Position numbers and translations under genes: made by a program. From Chrysoperla carnea (Eukaryota > Arthropoda > Insecta > Neuroptera > Chrysopidae), in contig NC_058339.1 in assembly GCF_905475395.1 (NCBI RefSeq), positions 73,064,520 to 73,128,519 on the forward strand: DNA of 64,000 nt, read 5' to 3'. Positions within the stretch are counted from its first letter, which is position 1. Every line of letters begins with the position of its first letter. Below the pieces are notes generated by a model. The model had not been told where the DNA came from. It saw nothing but the letters and a program-made list of their open reading frames with translations, and ran no database searches. This document shows, piece after piece, positions 48,888 through 60,497 of this stretch.

Positions 48888-51800
48888 TTAAGATGAAGCA
48901 CCACCGGCTGGTGTTTTTTCTTCCTTAACACGGTCCTTCTTAAGTTGTCCCATAAATGAAGCTTTATCAGCTGGCGTTTGGAATCGACCATGACCAAATT
49001 TGGATGATGTATCAATGAATTTAAGATTAATTTTCTCTAATGCAGCACGTTTGGTATGTACAAGTAATGACTGAAAAACAAATCATACAAATATTTTAGG
49101 ATAAAATTTTTCAAACCACTTAAGAAATTCTCAACAAATATTTAATGAATCTCAGTCCTATCATTCAACGTCATAGAATTATTCAGAAATAAATTTTTGG
49201 CTCTAGATTGTTAACATCATTGAAAAACTTTAAAAGAAGTCATAGTTTTGTCGGGGCACATTTACGATAAAAACTCAACTTTAAAGTATTTTCTAAATCT
49301 TATCGCTTAACTAAAAATTAGGGAAAAAACTTTCCCCTGAAAAGTCTGCTCCTTGAACGAGGCACTCGTAAGCAAAATTCTGCAATTATTCAACATTCAA
49401 ATTAGACAAATGGGATGGACGACTAGTATATACTGTTTGCCTTCTTGAATACTCAAAATAGAGATAATTTTATGCGGCAGTAAATGTTAAATAACGTAAG
49501 GGGGTAGGGAATACCCCATGATGAAACTGGGAAGTGAAAGAACAAAATGTATAATGTATAATTATTCCTTTAAGAATATTTTTTCGTGAACTTTTCGTAA
49601 CAAGCGACAATCAAATAGTTAAAATTTTATCGTGATCCCAACATAACCAAAACTTACAATAACAAAAAAGTGTACAAAAATATCGCTTACCTTTCTCAAT
49701 GTGATAACACGTTTCTTAGGTCCCATACAACATCCTTTTAGCATAATGAAATCATTATTGACCTCACCATAATGAGGGAAACCGCCCATTGGTGTAATCG
49801 ATTTCTCTGATAAATCGTATTCGGTTGAAGCATTATTTTTAATGACTTTTCCATCCTTGGTATGGATACCAAGTCCAATACGATAGATTTTCTTGTTCAT
49901 TTCGGTACGATGATGATAACCTTTTTGACCTGCACGTGCTACCGTGAACGATACACGAGAAGGATGCCATGCTCCAATACAGGCAACTTTACGTAAACCT
50001 TTGTGTGTTTTACGTGGTAATTTCTTTGTATGCCAACGTGATGTAACACCTAGTAGTAATCAAAAAAACCAGAACAGAGGGTTAAATGTGTTGAAATCTT
50101 TTGATTATGTAATAAAGAATAGGAAAGGAATGAACTCAGTAGGAAGGCAGCATGAGGTATTTCGTCAAGTGAATCAGAAATTGCACATCTCATGTTTTTT
50201 CATCATGTTAATAGTTTTTTAGTCAAAAATTATGGTGAGTGGAGATTAAAGTGGCTTTTTGAAAGGTGCCCTTGAATCTTCACCAGCCGAAGTAGCTTTT
50301 CTTTTAGTTTTCTTGGTATGTACTTGTTCTCCGAAGTATACAGAAGAAGCCTGGGTAATTGAATAGACGGGGTCGACCTTTAAAAAGGTCTGGAGTGACA
50401 TCAACTGATGGAAGGTGTCAAGTCAAAAACTTTTTAGCCTATCAAGTTGATAGGAATTTTTATTTTCTTGGTATGCATTTGTTCCTCGAAGGGTAAGAAA
50501 CTCAGGGTGATAAAACAGGCGGGCTCGATCTTAAAGAAAAATCTGGAGTCTTTGAAAAAACTTGGACACGGTGACTTTTTTGTTTGTCAAATTAGTAGAA
50601 TAGTAGAAATTTTTTTCTTCATGATTTGTTGGTTTGGAGTCTTTCTTCGAAATGTACAGAGGCTTGGGTGATTGGACAGGCGGGCTCGACTTGTGAACAG
50701 GCCTAGATGTCACAAACTGATTGAAGGTACGAAGTTATAAGCTTTTCTTTTTTTTTTTGTAGTTTTTGTTTGGAGTCTCTCGACCTTGAAAAACTGGCGA
50801 AATTCAACTTATCTGACTTTCAAGTTAATGGTAATTTTTTTAGGACTTCCTTGCTATGTATTTGTTCCTCGAAGTGTACAGAAAAGACCCAGGTGATTGA
50901 ACAGGCAGACTCGATCTTTATTTTGTTTTATTACTTTGACTGATAGTTTCAAGGGCGCTTTTATAGGGAGGCACACACACAAAATCATTAGCTATGTTAA
51001 ATGAAGGTGTGAGTTTTAAAATTCGCAGACAAAAGACAATTCACAATTTTTAATAAAAATAATCCAGCAAAATTAGCAATGTCTAGTTTTTGCCCGATTG
51101 TGTTCGAGTTAAAAATAAATTTTGAAGAAATTGATTTAAAAAAAGACTATGTCCACTATCTACGAATAATTTTCTTTTCTAATTTCCTTTCCAAAACTAT
51201 TCCTTACCTTTGTATCCTTTTCCCTTGGTAACACCAATACAATCAATCATTTCATCTTGAGAGAAAACTTGTGTAACTGGAACTGGTTTTTCTAAATGTT
51301 CACGAGCCCATTGAACTTTTTGTTCAATAGTTCCACCATTCAATTGAATTTCCATAATGTGAGCTTTCTTTTGACGTTGTTTCAATAATTTCATCTAGAA
51401 TTTTTAATTAAAAAATCTTTAGAAATGTCGAAATAAAATAAAATTTTTTTTTACAAAATAGAAATAGGACTGTGCTTAACATGGTTTATCTCAGTGATCA
51501 TTGCCAGAAAGGCTACACCAAAGCTATGGAATATGCTAACCGATCCACTTGCAATAAAGCAAGGGAATACATGATCTACGATGTCGCGTTAAGATACTGT
51601 TATGGAATAGCAGCTCCCGCACGCGGGGTCCTTGAGGAAGGATTACCACTGACATCGAATAAATGAAAATTCCTTATTTTAATCCCTAGACGTTTTCAAA
51701 AAGGCTTAGAAAATAAATGCATATCTGTATAAAGGTGAGGTTGTTCGGACACTATCATCGTGTGTTCAGCGTGAGTCTCAGGTTAAGATAATTTGGAGTA

Positions 51801-54800
51801 GATAATTAGCCTGAACAGATAATGAACATAATAAGTTTTTCTCAAATTAATTTAGCGGTAATGAAAGCTTCTTTCAAAGAACTCTGCATAATAATTTTTG
51901 AATTTATTTTAAAATACATTCGTAACTCACAGGGACGTAAGGGCCAAAAACACACACCAGTATCAACTCAATTCACAAGGTTTAAGTCAAAAAAACCTGT
52001 AGACTTGTGCTAACTCGAATCCATTGAAGGCATGGCCAACCAGTAGATTAGTGAAATTATTCAGATGAATGAAAATTAATGATTCTTTAAAATTGACATC
52101 CTAACCTCAAATTAAGTGGTTTTGAAATGCTTGTTTTTCGCGAATAATAAAATTACCTGGTAGCTAAAAACAACGAACAAATTTCGTAGAAAATCAACGA
52201 AAATAGAATTAGGATAACATGTTTTAAAAATAGTTTTGCAATATCTATTGTTATTTCTCAATGATGTCTTCTACATTAAGAGAACATCTATAAAAACTGT
52301 TACTCAATACACTTAAGACTTTTTTGTTAAAATTATTTGTCTAACCTGTTTTTTCCTAAGCGGTACATTCTTACTACTAACAAGTATGGTCCTGTTAAGT
52401 GTGATTGCCTCTCGTCAGAAAATGAATTAGCCCCCGTTCAAAAACGTCTAAGTTTCCAAATTTTTTATGCGAAAAATACGTGAAATTTATATAAAATTAC
52501 CTGAGTGTGGGCAATAACACGAATAACTTTACAATATTTAACCATTTTCTTAATATCCTTCTCAATTGATTTACGTCCTAAATCGTCTTGCCATTTTTTG
52601 CTTGCTTTTGTGAATGCCTTCTTCTTACTCTTGTACCTATTTGGAACGTTAGAAGTAGAATTCAAAAAAATTATTGCAACCACAAACACACAGAAGTCTC
52701 AAAAATCTTTGCTGCGAAAAAGTTAAAGAAAAAATGGATTTGTCTCATCATATTGAGCGGAGACTACACATCCATAAAAATGTTGTGACCAAAAAAACAA
52801 ACTGCTCAAAGGCAATTTTTTGTCAACAAAACATTTCATAGTGGACTCTCATGCAGCCATTGGAGAGCTATTTTTTGAGATAATTAGTTTTAAAGTTTTA
52901 AAAAATTTCAAGAAAATTCGGGTGATAAAATAGTGTTAATAGACGAAAGAATTAAAGCTCTAAAAACGAGCCAACTGTCGATTTTATGAGAAGTACGATG
53001 GATCAGAATGCGATTATGTGTGCATCTATAAACTTTGCGAACAGAAGAGGGATAAATGAAAAGCTGGAAGGACAGGTTAAAACATCGATGGAAATAAATC
53101 TAATTTTATTACTCGTGGGCTTTTGGGGCCGCTTAACTTGAATATCGCAACAAATACGATACCCTAACTGGTGCCCAGGGAAGGTAGTATACACCTCGTG
53201 CCTTGGAGTTGAGAATGTGTTTAAAGAGAACATATTTCGACTAAACTCGTTACTCGGGGGTTTTCGAGATCACTGAATACGAATATCACTACTAAAATGG
53301 CTTCCGAAGTATGTCTTAACTCCAAGACACAAGGTGTATACAGCCATCCTTAAGCACCAAGTATCTCGGAAGCCATTTTTGTTTTCCCAGTTTTTCATTT
53401 CTACCTCAACATTTAGTTCGCAAAGTTTGAAGAATACACCCTCAAAAATGCTCACAATTTATCGACAGTTCATGGGTTTATTCCTTTATATATAGTTTCG
53501 GACTGTGCTTAACATGGTTTATCTCAGTGATCATTGCCAGAAAGGCTACACCAAAGCTATGGAATATGCTAACCGATCCACTTGCAATAAAGCAAGGGAA
53601 TACATGATCTACGATGTCGCGTTAAGATACTGTTATGAAATAACAGCTCCCGCACGCGGGGTCCTTGAGGAAGGATTACCACTGACATCAACATAATACG
53701 GTATCACTATTTTATCACACCAAAAAATAATTTAAGTTTAGTTTAAAAAACTTACCAATTCTTGTAGAAGCGACGACGGCAATCTTCACTTAAATGTTCG
53801 GCCCAAACAGTGACCAAAGCACGTAAGCCATGTGGAGTTTCAATGTACCCAACGCATCCTACAACAATCATTGGTGGAGTTTCCAAAATTGTTACAGCTT
53901 CCACAATTTCTTTCTTGTTTACCTCTGTACAAAAACAAATACTTGATTAGGTTTTTTTTAATTAAATTATTAAATTTAGCCTAGTTTGTAACACTTAGAA
54001 ATACACGTGTTCATAAAATCTACATAAATCAATTGACTCGACATCATGCTCGAGTAGAAGCCTATAATTGACTTTCGAAAATCAAATAAGATTGGAAACC
54101 AAAAATGTCAATTTTAGACCTTTGTTAACTCTGAATTGAAATAATTTAGCCTACGAGACAAAAGAATTGAACTCAAAGAGCAAACGCATTGAGAAGTGGT
54201 TTGGAAATATAGATGAGAATTTGAAAATTTACTCAGACCGCCCTAGAATAGTATCCACATGATTATTCAGGTAATAACCATAAACAGAAATATCTAAATC
54301 ATCACAGTAAATTTGTAACATTGAAATCAGTATATACAGGATCTTTCAATAATTGAACTGTACACTTTTCACAGAATTCACAAAAATGTACTTACTTGAA
54401 CCAGGTCTGTCAGCTTCACGTACCACGTGGGTCATACCAGCTTTGTAACCAATAAACGCAGTTAAATGGACTGGTTTGGTTGGGTCATCTTTTGGGAATG
54501 CCTTAACTTTACCACGATGGCGTTGGGATCTCTTTTTAGGATAGAATCCCATAGACCCATGTCGAGGGGCACTAAATTTACGATGAGACTGTAACGAAAA
54601 AAATAAAAATTTTAGACTAATGTTTAAGAAAAACCACCTAAAAGGTTGTATTGGACTAAGAAAATTTACTCAGACCGCCCTAGAATAGTATCCACATGAT
54701 TGTTCAGGTAATAACCATAAACAGAAATATCTAAATCATCATAGCGAAATTTTCTTCGAAAAATGAATTTAAAATTTATTTAGAAACATTAAAAATTTAA

Positions 54801-54877
54801 TTAAAACTTGAGTTAAATATTAAATTATAATAAAGATTACTAAGATAAACTTAGATTTTGATAAAAGTACTTACCAT
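48888..54877 (-). CDS. RpL3: 60S ribosomal protein L3 (uL3)
   Basis: A 409-aa large-subunit protein that binds 28S rRNA near the peptidyl-transferase centre. Coding exons: 54875-54877 (ATG alone), 54396-54588, 53756-53924, 52501-52636, 51208-51394, 49691-50049, 48888-49070; phases close exactly to 410 codons. It starts [13 protein letters not shown] and contains [41 protein letters not shown] (the histidine in this loop is hydroxylated in mammals) and [10 protein letters not shown], all hallmark uL3 segments. The length lies between the usual human and fly lengths. The unusually long introns host several snoRNAs in the sense orientation, so snoRNA production is tied to RpL3 transcription and splicing. 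Nothing suggests a defect. Confidence 0.97.
49148..49224 (-). ncRNA. Possible C/D-box snoRNA in RpL3 intron 6
   Basis: The minus strand shows a C-like box ATGATGT (49214-49220; the consensus ends in A), a D'-like CTGA within TTTCTGAAT and a D box CTGA (49152-49155), 77 nt in all. The terminal stem is weak and I could not assign a target to the guide before box D (GTTGAATGATAGGA). This is a weak candidate. Confidence 0.25.
50131..50212 (-). ncRNA. C/D-box snoRNA, U83-like (18S guide), RpL3 intron 5
   Basis: Minus strand: C box ATGATGA (50200-50206), D' CTGA, D box CTGA (50136-50139), and a short terminal stem (ATTAAC with GTTCAT, one mismatch). The 11 nt before box D, GCTGCCTTCCT, are an exact complement of the universally conserved 18S segment AGGAAGGCAGC. 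By the box-D-plus-five rule this points to the A in GGA. Human U83 snoRNAs are hosted in RPL3 and, as I recall, target the same 18S adenosine (A468 in human), so host and target both agree. It is a 2'-O-methylation guide acting with fibrillarin in the nucleolus. Confidence 0.8.
50290..50940 (-). repeat. Four diverged tandem units in RpL3 intron 5, possibly an H/ACA snoRNA family
   Basis: Four related units are anchored at about 50330, 50484, 50646 and 50870. On the minus strand each shares TCGAGCCCGCCTGTTCAATC, a CACCC..GG.TTC stretch and CTTCGAGGAACAAATACA. In the best units TGTTC and GAACA can close a hairpin that is followed by ACA plus three bases, as in the 3' half of an H/ACA RNA; the unit near 50330 ends AAGTACATACC. 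The hinge box is not clear and the unit near 50646 lacks the ACA end. The repeat is certain; the snoRNA reading is tentative. Confidence 0.5.
51468..51656 (-). ncRNA. U17: U17 (E1/snR30 type) H/ACA snoRNA, copy 1, RpL3 intron 4
   Basis: A 189-nt sense-strand RNA. U17 does not guide pseudouridylation but is needed for 18S rRNA processing. The 3' hairpin carries the two diagnostic motifs: ATATTCCATA (51525-51534; the usual m1 is AUAUUCCUA, here with one extra A) and AAACCAT (51481-51487, m2), spaced as in vertebrate U17, including the conserved GGCAATGATCACTG between them. The 5' hairpin closes with GATGTC/GACATC, followed by the hinge box AGATCA (51572-51577), and the RNA ends in ACA (51471-51473) plus three bases. 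A GTTAGCAT/ATGTTAAGC stem closes the m1/m2 pocket. The 3' end is 73 nt from the downstream exon. It differs from copy 2 at two positions. Confidence 0.92.
53090..53385. repeat. Degraded repeat with palindromic end in RpL3 intron 3
   Basis: The segment contains two related phrases (ATTACTCGTGGGCTTTTGGG near 53108 and GTTACTCGGGGGTTTTCGAG near 53250) and an inverted pair, AAAATGGCTTCCGA near 53295 and TCGGAAGCCATTTT near 53365. It looks like a transposon fragment, and no function is inferred. Confidence 0.5.
53501..53689 (-). ncRNA. U17: U17 (E1/snR30 type) H/ACA snoRNA, copy 2, RpL3 intron 3
   Basis: Second copy, 187 of 189 positions identical to copy 1, in the adjacent intron and the same orientation. 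The m1-like motif is at 53558-53567, m2 at 53514-53520, box H at 53605-53610 and box ACA at 53504-53506. The two differences lie in the 5' hairpin, where copy 2 forms a perfect CTGTTAT/ATAACAG stem and copy 1 has a mismatch. Flanking intron sequence is unrelated to that of copy 1, so homology stops at the RNA boundaries. Confidence 0.92.
54226..54312 (-). ncRNA. C/D-box snoRNA, copy in RpL3 intron 2, predicted 18S guide
   Basis: Minus strand: C box GTGATGA (54299-54305), D' CTGA, D box CTGA (54233-54236), and a strong terminal stem AAATTTAC/GTAAATTT. CTAGGGCGGT before box D is complementary to 18S ACCGCCCTAG as found in insects. GTTTATGGTT upstream of D' is complementary to AACCATAAAC, which follows a few bases later in 18S, though it does not abut the box. 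The plus-five rule predicts methylation of the C in ACCGC. This may correspond to fly Me18S-C1096, a name I recall but have not checked. Confidence 0.82.
54663..54748 (-). ncRNA. C/D-box snoRNA, duplicate copy in RpL3 intron 1
   Basis: Near-identical duplicate of the intron 2 snoRNA: C box ATGATGA (54736-54742), D box CTGA (54670-54673), and the same two 18S-complementary guide segments. The terminal stem is weaker because the 5' flank has diverged (TTTTCGCT rather than AATTTACT). Homology to the other copy ends at the RNA boundaries. Confidence 0.8.
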
Positions 54878-58832: not shown

Positions 58833-60497
58833 ATGAACCACACAAAGAAAATGGAAAATAATTCATTTCATGGAGAAAAACAAATTAAAATCGAAAAAGA
58901 CTTAAATATAGAACTAGTATTAATCAAAAATGAAATAATTGAAGAAAGTGATACAGTAGATGATGAATATATTAAAGAAAAGACGCTAGAAGATAGTAAA
59001 GAAGCAAATGAAGGAAGTTATTTGTCCTGTGAAAATATTAAACTTGAACAACAAATAAATACAGAATTAATTATTAAGGAGGAAAAATTAGATGAAATTA
59101 TTGTAGACGATCAACGAACTGAAAATGAAGAACATTTTTCATGTATTGATTGTGGCAAGACATTTAATCGCATACAACTTTTAATTAAACATCAACGAAC
59201 TCATGCAGAAAAAAAACTTTATTCATGTGAAGTTTGTGAAAAATCATTTAATCTAAAACATAATTTAACGAAACATTTACGATTACATACCGGAGAAAAA
59301 CCATTCTCATGTGAAGATTGTGATAAAACATTTACACAAAAACAGCATTTAATAATACATCAACGGACTCATACAAGAGAAAAACCATTTTCATGTGAAT
59401 TTTGTAATAAAACATTTACACAAAATTCACATTTAATTCAACATAAACGAACTCATACGGGAGAAAAACCGTTATCATGTGAAATTTGTAATAAAACATT
59501 TACGTATCACATTCAATTAACTCAACATAAAGGAGTTCATACTGGTGAAAAATCTTTTCCATGTGACCTTTGTAATAAAACATTTTCATGGAAACATAAT
59601 TTAACGAAACATAAACGAACTCATACAAATGAATCGTTTACTTGTGAAATTTGTAATAAAACATTTAATCAAAAATATAGTTTAATTGTACATCAAAGAA
59701 AACACACGGGAGAAAAATTATTTTCATGTGAAATTTGTGATAAAACATTTACAAATAAAAGTCATTTAGCTTCGCATCAACGGAGTCATACCGGGGAAAA
59801 ACCGTTTGAATGTGAAGTTTGTAATAAAAAATTTGGTTACCAAAGTGTTTTAACTGAACATAAAAGAACTCATACCGAAGAAAAACTTTATTCGTGTAAA
59901 ATTTGTGAACAAACTTTTACTCAAAAAGATGTTTTAATTGTACATAAGAAAACTCACACTAGAGAAAAACCATTTTCATGTGAAATTTGTGATAAAACAT
60001 TTATTTACCAAAGTCATTTAGCTGAACATCAACGACATCACACTGGCGACAAACCGTTTGAATGTGAAATTTGTAATAAACGATTTATTTGGAAACAGAA
60101 TTTAACTCGACATTTACTCATTCATACTGGAGAGAAATCATTTTCTTGTGAGCTATGTGATGAAACATTTACTCAAAAACAACATTTAATTCATCATAAA
60201 CGAACTCATATTGAAGAAAAATCTTTTTCGTGTGAATTTTGTGATAAAACATTTACGTATCAAAGTCAGTTAGTTCAACATAAACGATTGCATACAAAGG
60301 ACAAACCATTTTCATGTGAAATTTGTAATAAAACTTTTACATATCGAAACGGTTTAATTGAACATTTCCGAATTCATACGGGAGAAAAACCTTTTTCATG
60401 TGAATTTTGTGATAAAGCATTTGCTCGGAAATTTACTTTAATTAAACACAAACGAATTCATAGACAAGAAACGTTGTTGAAATCAGAATCTTGTTGA
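58833..60497 (+). CDS. C2H2 zinc-finger protein with 16 tandem fingers, single coding exon
   Basis: A 554-aa protein. The first 100 residues are acidic and finger-free (IKKE-type and IKNEIIEES-type motifs, rich in Glu/Lys, with repeated SUMO-like IK.E). Sixteen consecutive C2H2 fingers fill the rest (about residues 103-545), most joined by TGEKP-type linkers and with near-uniform C.(2)C.(12)H.(3)H spacing. No ZAD or KRAB domain is visible. A TGA stands in frame directly before the ATG, so the start is secure unless an upstream exon is spliced in. The fingers are very alike, suggesting recent internal expansion. It is probably a nuclear sequence-specific regulator; the target is unknown. It is not part of the nine-exon gene to the left, whose fingers are more diverged. 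Confidence 0.92.
   Translation: MNHTKKMENNSFHGEKQIKIEKDLNIELVLIKNEIIEESDTVDDEYIKEKTLEDSKEANEGSYLSCENIKLEQQINTELIIKEEKLDEIIVDDQRTENEEHFSCIDCGKTFNRIQLLIKHQRTHAEKKLYSCEVCEKSFNLKHNLTKHLRLHTGEKPFSCEDCDKTFTQKQHLIIHQRTHTREKPFSCEFCNKTFTQNSHLIQHKRTHTGEKPLSCEICNKTFTYHIQLTQHKGVHTGEKSFPCDLCNKTFSWKHNLTKHKRTHTNESFTCEICNKTFNQKYSLIVHQRKHTGEKLFSCEICDKTFTNKSHLASHQRSHTGEKPFECEVCNKKFGYQSVLTEHKRTHTEEKLYSCKICEQTFTQKDVLIVHKKTHTREKPFSCEICDKTFIYQSHLAEHQRHHTGDKPFECEICNKRFIWKQNLTRHLLIHTGEKSFSCELCDETFTQKQHLIHHKRTHIEEKSFSCEFCDKTFTYQSQLVQHKRLHTKDKPFSCEICNKTFTYRNGLIEHFRIHTGEKPFSCEFCDKAFARKFTLIKHKRIHRQETLLKSESC

Follow-up and report, generated by a model that had tools for sequence, protein, structure and literature searches.

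Two near-identical candidate U17/snR30-type snoRNA genes in adjacent RpL3 introns of Chrysoperla carnea, with an m1 motif complementary to the species' own 18S rRNA

The stretch of DNA analysed here (the window) comprises 64,000 nucleotides of Chrysoperla carnea contig NC_058339.1. On its minus strand it holds the ribosomal protein gene RpL3, whose introns carry two near-identical copies resembling U17/snR30, a small nucleolar RNA (snoRNA) of the H/ACA class with a part in assembling the small ribosomal subunit (Table 1). The host gene is intact and complete, with 7 exons joining into a 1230-nt open frame of 409 amino acids and with 6 introns (286, 471, 1119, 1106, 1158, and 620 nt) that all start with GT and end with AG. 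Its product aligns over the whole length with L3 chains in PDB, the best being 6xu6_CB and 4v6w_CB at 823 bits (next, 744), which we take to be chains of Drosophila ribosomes. A sequence-only reading of this DNA had proposed two U17 snoRNA genes in adjacent RpL3 introns; the family matches, the motifs, and the location in introns 3 and 4 bear this out, the sequences and the host gene being observed directly. Throughout, the borders of copies A and B are the Rfam borders (predicted length, 191 nt), and positions 1 to 191 are counted within the predicted RNA.

Table 1. Coordinates of RpL3, the snoRNA copies in its introns, and the elements of the predicted U17 RNAs (window positions)
Feature	Position	Strand	Basis or remark
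RpL3 coding region	48888..54877	-	exons 54877-54875, 54588-54396, 53924-53756, 52636-52501, 51394-51208, 50049-49691, 49070-48888
U17/snR30 (SNORA73) copy A, RpL3 intron 3	53501..53691	-	Rfam RF00045 45.7 bits, E 5.6e-9; 188/191 identical to copy B
U17/snR30 (SNORA73) copy B, RpL3 intron 4	51468..51658	-	Rfam RF00045 48.6 bits, E 9.2e-10
m2 motif AAACCAU, copy A	53514..53520	-	exact in sequence
m2 motif AAACCAU, copy B	51481..51487	-	exact in sequence
m1 motif AUAUUCCAUA, copy A	53558..53567	-	sequence; UAUUCCAU fully complementary to own 18S AUGGAAUA
m1 motif AUAUUCCAUA, copy B	51525..51534	-	as for copy A
H box AGAUCA (ANANNA), copy A	53605..53610	-	directly 3' of the closing stem of the 5' domain
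H box AGAUCA (ANANNA), copy B	51572..51577	-	read from sequence
ACA box, copy A	53504..53506	-	3 nt before Rfam 3' border
ACA box, copy B	51471..51473	-	sequence, Rfam border
Second m1-like element, 5' domain, copy B, positions 49-57: CUAUUCCAU	51602..51610	-	Watson-Crick to 18S 972-980
Second m1-like element, copy A: UUAUUUCAU	53635-53643	-	pairs with 18S 972-980 through two G.U
U43-like C/D snoRNA, first copy, RpL3 intron 1	54666..54742	-	RF01174 52.4 bits, above cut-off 45
U43-like C/D snoRNA, second copy, RpL3 intron 2	54229..54305	-	RF01174 51.6 bits
U83-like C/D snoRNA candidate, RpL3 intron 5	50132..50210	-	RF01179 29.3 bits, below cut-off 50, E 0.085

The Rfam model for U17, RF00045, aligns in full (model positions 1-219 of 219) at both copies when about 6 kb is searched, and over the whole 559-Mb genome the E-values of the two matches are 2.0e-8 and 1.2e-7. 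With E-values this low at both scales (Table 1 for the 6-kb search), a chance match is excluded. Like the family match, the genome-wide copy number was observed directly: a DNA search of the 559-Mb genome gave no third place, both of its two candidates being scored and being copies A and B, and the RF00045 genome search likewise gave no third place among the 29 of 10237 first-look candidates that were scored, so that the count is at least two. The model for yeast-type snR30, RF01271, had no match in the genome in a search that was also silent on all 14 of its controls. A pattern for the U17 3' hairpin found 0 matches in a collection of genome contigs and 0 in a collection of viral contigs.

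Both copies contain, at the DNA level, the m1-like ATATTCCATA, the hinge AGATCA, and the m2 sequence AAACCAT. At the Rfam 3' border, the predicted RNA end, each reads ACAGUC. When the H and ACA boxes were kept open and the two stems expected in the 3' hairpin were imposed, the RNA formed three parts: a 5' domain with two stems above a closing stem, then a small internal hairpin, and lastly a 3' hairpin whose pocket has m1 and m2 opposite one another at its base. In this imposed-stem fold only, and by hand count, the top of the pocket lies 16 nt from ACA, the free minimum-energy fold being different; the distance given for U17 is 14-16 nt (PMC7601244).

To examine pairing, the species' own 18S ribosomal RNA (rRNA) was excised from its genome (L008, minus strand; length of the cut, 2156 nt), and all 18S numbers refer to this excision. 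At the rm region, which holds the sites rm1 and rm2 facing m1 and m2, it reads GCAUGGAAUAAUGGAAUAGGACCUCGGUUCUAUUUUGUUGGUUUUCGG: AUGGAAUA occurs in tandem with starts at 964 and 972, GGAAUA starts at 966, and UGGUUU lies at 1000-1005. The complementarity is a direct observation. UAUUCCAU forms 8 ungapped Watson-Crick pairs with AUGGAAUA at 964-971 (-8.7 kcal/mol), and AAACCA of m2 is complementary to UGGUUU over 6 Watson-Crick pairs; the usual m1, UAUUCCUA, would form 6 pairs on the same site (-6.4 kcal/mol). The sequence-only reading would have been refuted had m1 and m2 been unable to pair with the species' own 18S, and these 8 + 6 pairs show that they can. The 8 + 6 arrangement arose within the allowed spacing in 5 of 3000 shuffled 18S sequences, and a 6 + 6 arrangement in 35 of 3000. 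The starts of rm1 and rm2 are 34 nt apart, compared with 35 in yeast (rm1 GGAAUA at 801-806, rm2 UGGUUU at 836-841; PMC9176245).

The tandem offers two possible partners for m1. Between the first (964) and rm2, the 18S forms 12 pairs including wobbles (-10.3 kcal/mol), and between the second (972) and rm2 only 4 pairs (-3.7). In yeast, rRNA bound by snR30 adopts a three-way junction with a helix, made by the stretch from rm1 to rm2, that mature 18S lacks (PMC12095548, PMC3794860). It is therefore the first AUGGAAUA that fits this junction as rm1. With 137 occurrences across the genome, the extended site, GCATGGAATAATGGAATAGGACCTCGG, belongs to the ribosomal DNA arrays. Separately, an isolated partial 18S outside the arrays, on contig 1 (L003, 1161-1650), has AUGAAAUA in place of AUGGAAUA at the rm1 site.

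The m1 core AUAUUCC is exact in both copies and is followed by A at position 8; each of the 14 organisms tabulated in PMC7601244 (its Table 1), none of them an arthropod, has U there (UA in 11, UG in 2, UU in 1). The sequence-only reading had described an extra A in m1 that could test how strict the 18S pairing is. We rejected the view that this A strains the pairing, given that the motif pairs better with its own 18S than the usual m1 does (8 versus 6 pairs, -8.7 versus -6.4). The “extra A” is better read as a substitution, CCUA to CCAU, that improves the pairing by extending the duplex from 6 to 8 pairs. The usual m1 makes 8 pairs with UAGGAAUA, the human 18S sequence at this site. A change from UA to AU in the snoRNA thus faces AU in the rRNA, where vertebrates have UA, which argues for a compensatory pair of changes and not for an insertion; it represents one lineage and one event.

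These pairings lead to a proposed working. Pairing of m1 with AUGGAAUA at 964-971 and of m2 with UGGUUU at 1000-1005 would clamp expansion segment 6 (ES6) of the pre-18S rRNA, and while U17 is bound the rRNA between rm1 and rm2 would fold into a hairpin unlike the mature fold. U17 would bind ES6 in the sense reverse to that of a modification guide, would hold it during early 18S processing, and would make no pseudouridine. The mechanism beyond complementarity to 18S is one that we infer, with working as U17/snR30 the most likely case. Expression, processing from the introns, ribonucleoprotein assembly, and function of the two copies are likewise predicted from sequence. Altogether, we consider it very probable that both copies are genes for U17/snR30-type H/ACA snoRNAs, expected to be released from spliced RpL3 introns, clamping ES6 through m1 and m2, and duplicated within the gene.

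Several points weigh against this interpretation. The RF00045 scores of 48.6 and 45.7 bits are well below the curated gathering score of 74, so that a default Rfam scan of the window names neither U17 copy and only the two U43-like ones; this score is a database rule and not a biological trait. The high Rfam score expected by the sequence-only reading at both places has thus held in the sense of a highly significant E-value and failed in the sense of the curated cut-off. Left unconstrained, the whole RNA has a minimum-energy fold other than the H/ACA one. The stability of this free fold is modest, with z = -1.22 for copy B (26 of 200 shuffles as stable) and z = -2.40 for copy A (3 of 200), and the imposed 3' hairpin, at -8.8, is less stable than the same stretch folded freely, at -10.2. 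H/ACA RNAs fold on their proteins, and for this reason we treat the mismatch of the free fold as a caveat. As for m1, the two extra pairs could match by luck in about 1 in 16 cases by simple counting. Moreover, yeast 18S also reads AUGGAAUA at the site (from a primer; PMC9176245) and yeast snR30 combines it with an m1 of UAUUCCUA (PMC7601244), so that the outer m1 pairs are not needed everywhere.

The two copies differ at 3 of 191 positions (2, 49, and 54), each a T in copy A (at 53.5 kb) and a C in copy B (at 51.5 kb). The identity of 187/189 given by the sequence-only reading is correct over that span and corresponds to the 188/191 found over the Rfam borders, with unrelated flanks. None of the 110 positions from the H box on, i.e., the 3' domain, differs, and the two 5' domains share 78 of their 81 positions. 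Comparison by 20-nt windows without gaps gives 18-20 identical letters of 20 inside the RNA and 3-12 of 20 outside; identity ends about at the predicted RNA ends, the best ungapped block being positions 3-192. Allowing one gap, blastn extends the match by about 5 nt upstream (197 columns, 98.0%), and a repeat search with looser rules gives 215 nt at 93%. We propose that the copies would have arisen by duplication within RpL3. Their likeness may be due to recent origin or gene conversion, as the sequence-only reading suggested, or to constraint. Cis-duplication from one intron to the next is a documented way for snoRNAs to multiply (PMC3412847, PMC2653536).

The near-identity could also be old, the snoRNA having stayed under selection since an ancient duplication while the intron flanks drifted beyond recognition. 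We regard this as a serious possibility, short of probable: the U17 and U43-like pairs both lose identity about at the mature ends, as purifying selection would give, yet the 5' domain, which is variable between species (PMC7601244), still matches at 78/81, and gene conversion or a recent copy explains that match more simply. It is quite unlikely, in our estimation, that the second copy came about by recent retroposition, the snoRNA being copied at the RNA level into the next intron. Retroposition is named among the ways in which snoRNAs spread (PMC3412847), and the borders of the identical block coincide with the predicted mature RNA; against this, the flanks examined contain no target-site duplication longer than 6 nt, and no A-tail directly follows ACA plus 3 nt, a run of nine A beginning only about 16 nt past copy B. 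Retroposition was accordingly rejected as unproven.

A different question is whether both copies work. That only one does, the other being a silent or decaying duplicate, seems to us unlikely. One apical stem in the 5' domain, paired throughout in copy A, has a C.A mismatch in copy B that costs this domain 2.7 kcal/mol (-23.8 versus -26.5); however, all three differences (positions 2, 49, and 54) spare the 3' domain, pairing at position 2 is retained, U.G becoming C-G, and yeast stays viable when snR30 loses its 5' hairpin (PMC7601244). There is, finally, a very small chance that the copies are ordinary H/ACA pseudouridylation guides and not U17, since the H/ACA layout and a 3' pocket are common to all such guides; the significant full-length SNORA73 match argues otherwise.

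One further feature was noticed post hoc and is a lead only. A second m1-like element in the 5' domain is complementary to 18S 972-980, AUGGAAUAG, and it contains two of the three differences between the copies, neither of which breaks its 18S pairing. Among 2000 shuffled 5' domains, 15 reached nine consecutive Watson-Crick pairs with the 56-nt rm region, and 255 of 2000 did so with two G.U pairs allowed. The duplex energy is unremarkable, with 254 of 2000 shuffles as good for copy B and 1040 of 2000 for copy A, and in copy A the element is mostly buried in a stem. The search for other long complementarity between U17 and 18S gave a longest Watson-Crick run of 9 nt, no more than in shuffled U17 (200 of 300 reach at least 9). 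We consider it highly unlikely that U17 of this lineage grips ES6 at two tandem sites, m1 on the first AUGGAAUA (964-971) and the second element on AUGGAAUAG (972-980), with the copies being non-redundant and differing in the strength of the second anchor.

The other RpL3 introns hold further snoRNA-like sequences. The U43-like pair differs at 2 of 77 positions, with similarity ending about at the mature RNA ends, and a whole-genome search found no third copy, RpL3 introns 1 and 2 being the sole places found. These RNAs carry 10-nt and 11-nt complements to the adjacent 18S stretches 1171-1180 and 1184-1194, next to box D and upstream of D'. The U83-like candidate has a 12-nt exact complement to 18S 438-449, one nucleotide before box D. 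Human SNORD83A/B lie within RPL3 introns 5 and 7 (PMC3412847), so the tie of this candidate to its host may be old. Intron 3 also contains, at 53169-53359, an inverted repeat with 46-nt arms (80% complementary). The arm region of the sharper hairpin next to it is resembled by two diverged sequences at other places in the genome (80-83% over 66 nt); the structure is perhaps an old mobile-element remnant. About four degenerate units with a spacing of 152-225 nt (families D3 and D4) lie in intron 5 at 50302-50918. Outside RpL3, an open frame of 554 amino acids at 58833-60497 (plus strand) has many C2H2 zinc-finger-like repeats, as judged by eye, and ARAGORN returned 0 genes on the 64-kb window.

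The copies share with vertebrate U17/E1/SNORA73 (RF00045) a length of about 190-220 nt, the H and ACA boxes, m2 AAACCAU, the m1 core AUAUUCC, and an intronic host, together with, in the imposed-stem fold, the two stems of the 5' domain, the small internal hairpin, and the basal pocket of the 3' hairpin that holds the motifs; they differ in that m1 continues with AU, the host is RpL3, and the Rfam score is below the cut-off. They have m2, the m1 core, and a similar rm1/rm2 spacing (34 here, 35 in yeast) in common with yeast snR30, which in contrast is 606 nt long, lacks an intron host, and makes 6 m1 pairs even though yeast 18S reads AUGGAAUA. Several U17 copies per host also occur in Xenopus (six introns of the ribosomal protein S8 gene) and in human (U17HG, with U17a and U17b in two of its introns) (PMC7601244). 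The hosts differ from RpL3 with its two copies, in agreement with the view of the sequence-only reading that RpL3 is unlike known hosts. The titles, abstract beginnings, and passages covered by our literature search mention no U17 in RpL3 and no arthropod U17, and older fly RNA surveys may hold such reports. Cis-duplicated snoRNAs in neighbouring introns of one host are described from sponge RPL13A and for many chicken paralogues (PMC3412847, PMC2653536); in the cases considered here they are modification guides, unlike the processing RNA U17.

U17/snR30 is the only essential H/ACA RNA in yeast (PMC7601244). Host switching and multiple U17 copies per host are already known and ordinary, and the informative part is the m1/rm1 variant. 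That a strong insect U17 candidate scores about 26-28 bits under the Rfam cut-off suggests that U17 genes of insects can be overlooked when annotation relies on a threshold. As a natural variant worth following in insects, the m1/rm1 pair indicates that the pairing can reach 8 pairs and would provide a compensatory test of the two outer pairs outside the 6-nt rm1 of yeast.

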